DNA of 64,000 nt from Lachnospiraceae bacterium UBA1818. Its GTDB lineage: Bacteria; Bacillota; Clostridia; Lachnospirales; Lachnospiraceae. Of this stretch, positions 57,460 through 60,021 are shown piece by piece. The notes under the pieces were generated by a model, which worked only from the letters and a program-made list of their open reading frames with translations, made no database searches and had not been told where the DNA came from. A program made the translations under genes and the position numbers. The first letter of the stretch is position 1; every line of letters starts with the position of its first letter. The stretch spans positions 1 through 64,000 of the forward strand of contig CAJFQZ010000015.1 in the NCBI GenBank assembly GCA_904419285.1, given 5' to 3'.

Positions 57460-57534
57460 ATGCCGCACAATGAGGTTTTAAGATCTGCCCTGCAGACACC
57501 GTAATTGGCGAGTAATGATAATAGGAGGTGCCAT
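57460..57534 (+). promoter_or_regulatory. Ribosomal protein L21 leader
   Basis: The 75-nt segment between the promoter and rplU has the position and conserved look of the Firmicute L21 leader RNA, with GCCCTGCAGACACCGTAA followed by GGCGAGTAATGATAATAGG. It is thought to bind a ribosomal protein for autoregulation. Recognition is from memory of the class, not from a model search. AGGAGGTG at its end is the ribosome-binding site. Confidence 0.6.
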
Positions 57535-57809
57535 ATGTACGCGATTATAGCAACAGGTGGTAAACAGTACAAAGTAGCTGAAGGCGATACGAAACTTATA
57601 CATTTGACCAGGTGCTTGCAGTGAACAACGATAAGCTCATCGTTGGAACACCGACGGTAGAAGGTGCAACAGTTACAGCTTCTGTGATCGGCGACGGCAA
57701 GGCAAAGAAAGTTGTCGTTTACAAGTATAAGAGAAAAACTGGATACCATAAGAAAAACGGACACAGACAGCAGTATACAGCAGTGAAGATCGAAAAGATC
57801 AATGCATAA
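57535..57809 (+). pseudogene. rplU: 50S ribosomal protein L21, frameshifted by an internal deletion
   Basis: ATG 57535 with a strong AGGAGGTG site begins [18 protein letters not shown], the normal bL21 start. After the GAT codon (57586-57588) the frame runs into TGA at 57622-57624, giving only 29 residues. The rest of L21 is intact in another frame from about 57591 ([14 protein letters not shown]) to the stop at 57809 (ending VKIEKINA). Compared with the usual length of about 102 residues, some 12 codons are missing and the frame is off, consistent with loss of about 34 bases. It could be a genuine mutation or an assembly error. Confidence 0.88.
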
Positions 57810-57821
57810 TACAGTGCTCCG

Positions 57822-58154
57822 ATGATCAGGGTAACCATTTACAAGACCGCAAGGCATGAATATGTGGGGTTCGATCTGTCCGGACATGCCGGATATGCCG
57901 AATCCGGGCAGGATATCGTCTGTGCGGCTGTCTCAGCACTGGTGATCAATGCGGTCAATTCGCTTGAACGGTTTACCGATGATGAGACAAGCTGTACTGC
58001 CAATGAAGAAACCGGAGACATAGAGCTCAGGTTCGCAGGCAGCCCTTCCCACGATGCCGCGCTTCTGCTGGATTCCATGATTCTTGGTCTGGAAGAGATA
58101 GAAGACAGCAGGGAATACAAGTCATATATCGACATTATTTTCAAGGAGGTGTAA
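57822..58154 (+). CDS. prp: Ribosomal-processing cysteine protease Prp
   Basis: A 110-residue cysteine protease that removes the N-terminal extension of L27. The catalytic His is in [13 protein letters not shown] near residue 21 and the Cys in [10 protein letters not shown] near residue 34. It lies between rplU and rpmA in the invariant Firmicute order. Its presence agrees with the L27 extension seen in the next gene. The ATG at 57822 has only a weak site, suggesting translational coupling to rplU, 12 bp upstream. Confidence 0.92.
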
Positions 58155-58737: not shown

Positions 58738-60021
58738 ATGTTTGCAGACAGAGCAAAAATCTATATCAGATCCGGAAAAGGCGGAGACGGGCACTGCAGC
58801 TTCCGCAGAGAACTCTATGTGCCGAACGGCGGACCTGACGGAGGTGACGGAGGCCGAGGCGGCGATCTGATCTTCGAGGTAGATGAAGGGATGAACACTC
58901 TGGCGGATTACCGCCACAAGCGTAAATACGCCGCAGGGGACGGAGAACAGGGCGGCAAACGCCGCTGCCACGGAAAGGATGGCAAGGATCTTGTGCTCCG
59001 TGTCCCGGAGGGAACCGTTATCAAAGAGGCGGAGACCGGAAAGGTGATCGCTGATATGTCCGGTGAGAACAGAAGACAGGTGATATTAAAAGGGGGCAAG
59101 GGCGGACTTGGAAACCAGCATTTTGCCACTGCCACCATGCAGGTGCCGAAATACGCGCAGCCCGGACAGCCGGCCCGCGAGCTTGAGGTGAACCTGGAGC
59201 TGAAAGTGATCGCAGATGTTGGGCTGATCGGTTTCCCGAATGTGGGAAAATCCACTCTGCTTTCACGCGTGACAAATGCAGATCCGAAGATCGCAAACTA
59301 TCATTTTACGACCCTGAGCCCGAATCTGGGGGTTGTCGATCTTGACGATGCAAAGGGATTTGTGATGGCAGATATCCCCGGTCTTATCGAGGGGGCTTCT
59401 GAGGGAGTAGGCCTCGGACATGAGTTTCTTCGTCATATCGAGCGGACGAAGATGATGATCCATGTAGTGGATGCCGCAGGAAGCGAAGGAAGGGATCCGG
59501 TCGATGATATCTATAAAATCAATGCCGAGCTTGAAAACTACAATCCGGAGATCGCAAAGCGTCCTCAGGTGATCGCGGCAAACAAGACAGATCTGATCTA
59601 CGGAGACGAGGATGAGACCATTGACAGGCTGAAAGCAGAATTTGAGCCAAAAGGGATTCGTGTCTTCCCGATCTCCGGCGTATCAGGAGCGGGGATCTCA
59701 GACTTGCTGTACTATGTGAGCAGCCAGCTTGAAACTATGGACAGCACTCCGGTCATCTTTGAGCAGGAGTTCTTCCCGGAGGATGAACTGATCTATGAAA
59801 ATCTTCCGTATACAGTAGAAGAGCAGGACGGCATGTATGTGGTAGAGGGACCGAAGATCGAGAAGATGCTCGGATATACCAATCTGGATTCGGAAAAAGG
59901 ATTTGCCTTTTTCCAGAAGTTCCTGAAGGATACCGGAATCCTGGATGAGCTGGAGGCTGCCGGAATCCAGGAAGGCGACACGGTGAAGATGTACGGATTA
60001 CAGTTTGATTACTATAAGTAG
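58738..60021 (+). CDS. obgE: GTPase ObgE/CgtA
   Basis: A 427-residue ribosome-assembly GTPase. The Gly-rich Obg domain (residues 1-158) has RSGKGGDGHCSFRRE and GGPDGGDGGRGGD. The G domain has G1 GFPNVGKST near residue 164, DIPGLIEGASEG near residue 212 and NKTD near residue 282. A C-terminal OCT domain (about 345-427) is present, as is common in Firmicutes. AAAGGAG lies six bases upstream of ATG 58738. A long structured leader precedes it. Confidence 0.96.
   Translation: MFADRAKIYIRSGKGGDGHCSFRRELYVPNGGPDGGDGGRGGDLIFEVDEGMNTLADYRHKRKYAAGDGEQGGKRRCHGKDGKDLVLRVPEGTVIKEAETGKVIADMSGENRRQVILKGGKGGLGNQHFATATMQVPKYAQPGQPARELEVNLELKVIADVGLIGFPNVGKSTLLSRVTNADPKIANYHFTTLSPNLGVVDLDDAKGFVMADIPGLIEGASEGVGLGHEFLRHIERTKMMIHVVDAAGSEGRDPVDDIYKINAELENYNPEIAKRPQVIAANKTDLIYGDEDETIDRLKAEFEPKGIRVFPISGVSGAGISDLLYYVSSQLETMDSTPVIFEQEFFPEDELIYENLPYTVEEQDGMYVVEGPKIEKMLGYTNLDSEKGFAFFQKFLKDTGILDELEAAGIQEGDTVKMYGLQFDYYK

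Follow-up and report, generated by a model that had tools for sequence, protein, structure and literature searches.

The ribosomal protein L21 gene (rplU) in the stretch of DNA analysed here (the window), which constitutes the first 64 kb of a contig of 98,358 bases, was found to be split over two reading frames by a gap of 34 bases. This gap most likely reflects an error made when a draft genome was assembled from metagenomic reads, a reading to which we assign a probability of roughly 0.82, and the organism itself most likely possesses an ordinary L21 gene of 102 codons.

The anatomy of the broken gene agreed with the description that an earlier note had given from the sequence alone. The rplU gene starts with an ATG at 57535, located behind a strong ribosome-binding site (AGGAGG), and its codons 1 to 18 read as L21, ending in AEGD. 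As claimed in that note, the frame changes after codon 18, where 11 unrelated residues follow before a TGA at 57622–57624 terminates the 5′ piece (57535–57624, forward strand). The remaining 72 codons, which encode the C-terminal part of L21, were preserved at 57591–57806 in a frame other than that of the start and are followed by a stop codon at 57807–57809, so that the 3′ piece occupies 57591–57809 of the same strand. In the search with the Pfam profile Ribosomal_L21p (PF00829), both pieces scored above the cut-off of 27 bits, the 5′ piece matching profile positions 1–22 (29.1 bits, 1.2e-6) and the 3′ piece positions 32–99 (88.6 bits, 3.5e-25). A single open frame across the whole L21 profile was absent, and profile positions 23–31 were matched by neither piece.

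In the 39 relatives whose rplU was measured, the gene has 309 nt, as compared with 275 nt in the window, and the gap therefore amounts to 34 nt. When aligned to the copy of G079, which was the closest one, the junction at 57589/57590 (forward strand) proved to be the sole placement of this gap with four mismatches or fewer, and the joint had no bases common to both sides. The loss of about 12 codons after the EGD motif, also proposed in the earlier note, was confirmed along with the 34-base gap. Outside the gap, the gene is a well-kept L21 without decay and is 98.5% identical to that of G079 over 275 nt. Compared with the ordinary rplU (bL21, PF00829) of the rplU-prp-rpmA-obg cluster, the window thus has the same gene order, the same start and the same 72 C-terminal codons, whereas its gene is shorter by 34 bases and hence lies in two frames. 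Neither an N nor any other scaffold mark was present anywhere in the window. Upstream of the start, a likely L21 leader (RF00559) was recognized at 57464–57513 (forward strand) as a weak match of 25.1 bits (E 0.0059 in a 321-base search), which is under the gathering score of 36; at the gathering score, the whole window gave no match to RF00559. The leader and the start of rplU occurred once in the assembly, and the search for a second intact rplU that the earlier note had recommended yielded none, the two halves being the only matches in the family search of the assembly.

The genes around rplU were intact, as had been stated previously. On the forward strand, they include prp for the cysteine protease Prp (57822–58154; PF04327, 2.5e-29), rpmA for ribosomal protein L27 (58160–58444; PF01016, 2.6e-37), and a 427-aa ORF at 58738–60021, which we take to be the gene of the GTPase Obg and which had full-length matches of 87–92% identity in relatives; with this assignment, the gene order rplU-prp-rpmA-obg is present. 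Ten neighbours, namely rng, aspartokinase, a CBS protein, prp, rpmA, obg, yhbY, nadD, yqeK, and rsfS, aligned nearly end to end with their counterparts in relatives. In addition, ORFs of eight relatives, which covered 22,063 bases of the 98-kb contig, mostly about 10 kb on each side of the gene, revealed no break of a coding-strand frame other than that of rplU; four other flagged places were rejected as shadow ORFs of the opposite strand. Both flanks ranked the relatives alike (Spearman 0.77; 24 relatives were compared, and the 21 in which all nine flank genes could be compared entered the coefficient), so that a gross chimera joining two species at this gene was not supported. Apart from this, the Prp gene was seen to precede the L27 gene (57822–58200), the N-terminal start of which is presumably of the extension type that Prp trims. 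The ten closest named relatives of Prp, 72–78% identical, comprised eight drafts, seven called Mediterraneibacter and one Ruminococcus, as well as the isolates [Ruminococcus] torques and Ruminococcus turbiniformis.

The assembly that contains the window consists of 51 contigs with a total of 2.77 Mb and was rated as 94.26% complete and 1.45% contaminated. Despite the completeness rating of 94%, the 16S rRNA and the ribosomal proteins L2 and S3 found no match in the assembly, while L20 and L27 were intact. Judging from the number of contigs, the completeness and these missing matches, the assembly looks like a metagenome-assembled draft, and the relatives of Prp suggest that it probably belongs to a Mediterraneibacter-like gut species.

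Among 57 other genomes of the genus, L21 was full-length in 49, partial at a contig tip in three (G011, G023, and G029) and not found in the remaining five (G064, G069, G005, G014, and G004). No relative had the 34-base junction, which, with up to three mismatches allowed, was detected in one of the 58 genus genomes, namely the assembly of the window itself, and the missing stretch was well conserved in the aligned relatives. The idea that a short rplU frame of 39 aa is common to relatives was rejected, since such frames stop only where contigs end. On the family level, at least 330 of 348 sampled genomes gave an L21 match. Fourteen family genomes were picked for double or weak L21 matches, and one of these (G332) had an rplU broken in frame within one contig, in two overlapping pieces; most other partial L21 pieces among the 14 begin or end a few bases from a contig's first base. 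The case of G332, a draft with 79% completeness, resembles that of the window in that rplU is interrupted in a conserved stretch inside one contig (G332:C38, from base 1501). It differs in that the frame break falls late in the gene and the loss is a different and shorter one.

The position of the gap was then compared with the contig ends of the relatives. The leader and the first ~90 bases of rplU were identical or nearly so across many species that are about 74–84% alike around them, and the contigs of relatives break in the start of rplU because of this near-identity between species. Within −43 to +90 of rplU, 7 of the 57 genus relatives had a total of ten contig ends, as against an expectation of about 0.69; five of these fell at +86 to +90, as against an expectation of 0.026. 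The expected numbers come from rounded contig counts, both stretches were picked after looking, and ends within one genome are not independent, so that the Poisson values serve only as a guide. Specifically, contigs end at rplU positions 87 (G029), 88 (G032 and G061), and 89 (G025), and a contig of G023 starts at position 90. The gap in the window has its right edge between positions 89 and 90, and these contig ends of five relatives are thus at most two bases away from it. Contigs of G078 and G011 begin within the leader or the initial codons of rplU. In G032, G061, and G025, rplU resides on the tips of two contigs each, the ends of which overlap exactly by 131, 131, and 116 bases, respectively, as is typical of branch points of an assembly graph. 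One chicken-gut study is reported to have assembled its samples by using MEGAHIT with k up to 127 (PMC8035907); the 131-base overlaps are near this value and not equal to it, and the present genomes need not come from that study. According to another report, near-identical sequences common to several species fragment metagenome assemblies (PMC11479545). The present case is similar to the one described there in that related assemblies break at a short sequence that their species have in nearly identical form, but differs in that the contig of the window is unbroken and carries on minus 34 bases.

In a control with the gene of L27, 55 of the 58 genomes gave a match; the copy in G014 is partial. 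At least two contigs begin just before this gene (G064:C115:4 and G029:C58:7), which marks a second possible break point in the cluster, and such breaks are therefore not confined to rplU.

Since the gap ends at the place where assemblies of relatives also break, an assembly error is the most likely explanation. The earlier note, which also named a strain coping without full L21 as an option, had leaned toward an error or a very recent loss, and this leaning is supported. Of these options, error is favoured by the incompleteness of the draft, in which other highly conserved loci gave no match, together with assembly breaks of relatives at most two bases from the right edge of the gap. The course of events that we propose sets out from three observed facts, namely the 34-base gap itself, the near-identity of the gene start between species, and the ends of other genomes' contigs at this site. 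Because many related species hardly differ in the leader and the start of rplU, reads of several species would collapse onto one node consisting of the leader and the first ~90 bases of the gene. The species would diverge just after codon 29, and the assembly graph would branch there. In the present genome, the outgoing piece may then have been joined to the incoming one without the final 34 bases of the node, which would have shifted the frame, and this loss would have been made either by the assembler or in a later joining step. As a plain de Bruijn path requires junction-containing reads, some subsequent step of joining or gap closing has to be assumed; both this step and short metagenomic reads as the source are what we infer. 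Several observations count against the assembly error. The relatives show breaks at this place and not 34-base losses, the left edge of the gap matches no contig end seen in the relatives, and rplU is not unique, given that L27 is also a break point. The absence of any other frame break in the compared stretch around rplU indicates that the assembly is not generally bad, and the agreement in kinship between the two flanks of rplU, on a contig of 98 kb, indicates that this contig is not grossly chimeric.

The main alternative, namely that a real and very recent deletion of 34 bases occurred in the sampled population, appears unlikely. Under this explanation, either no normal L21 is made, or only part of the population is affected, or the genome has an intact copy in a region missing from the assembly. 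In favour of a deletion are a contig that shows no other fault around rplU, the lack of scaffold marks in the window, the fact that de Bruijn assembly would normally call for junction reads, and a completeness of 94.26%, which leaves room for a second rplU copy elsewhere. On the other hand, a deletion would leave it to coincidence that the right edge of the gap is the assembly break point of five relatives. Most slippage deletions have shared sequence at the joint, but here no sequence is common to its two sides; slippage between direct repeats was considered and rejected, because the two GGCGA repeats nearby would give another joint than the one seen. The rest of rplU without decay, the absence of the junction from every other genome among the 58 of the genus, and the general conservation of bL21 and its importance for growth also speak against a deletion. 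The stronger biological proposition that a gut bacterium lives with a disrupted rplU and with ribosomes devoid of normal bL21, owing to a very recent deletion that perhaps came about via gene exchange, is regarded as very improbable.

A mosaic origin of the gene was considered as well, in which rplU came from a recent exchange with a G079-like species, or the assembly followed the path of such a species through the gene, and the gap arose on that occasion; this would be compatible with an assembly error as well as with a real deletion. It is suggested by the identity of 57495–57784 to G079 save for the gap, with flanks only about 79% identical, and by the fact that the next relative after G079 is 92.7% identical over rplU among 40 compared. 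However, rplU is conserved anyway, at 89.1% on average over the 780 pairs of 40 relatives, and the pair G021 and G072 shows a similar contrast (98.4% in rplU versus 75.8% in the flank), so that the identity to G079 is not decisive. Moreover, exchange alone leaves the frameshift unexplained, and we give this origin very little credence. It would also be conceivable that the gene functions in its split form, since a −1 ribosomal frameshift near 57589–57591 would unite both pieces in one protein, an L21 about 12 residues shorter. Nevertheless, no slippery heptamer was seen at the joint when the bases were read by eye, the split frame is not conserved, its junction occurring in 1 of 58 genomes, and what such a protein would lack is the very stretch that aligned relatives conserve. 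Recoding of rplU thus has no support, and its probability is close to negligible. With an assembly error as the preferred explanation, the broken rplU should be regarded as an assembly artefact pending reads.

These results call for caution, in that a stretch common to several species can be the source of a broken universal gene in draft genomes. The places where related assemblies break provide a quick test for such artefacts and can be located without reads. Should the deletion be real after all, the organism would represent a wild bacterium that tolerates the loss of normal bL21.
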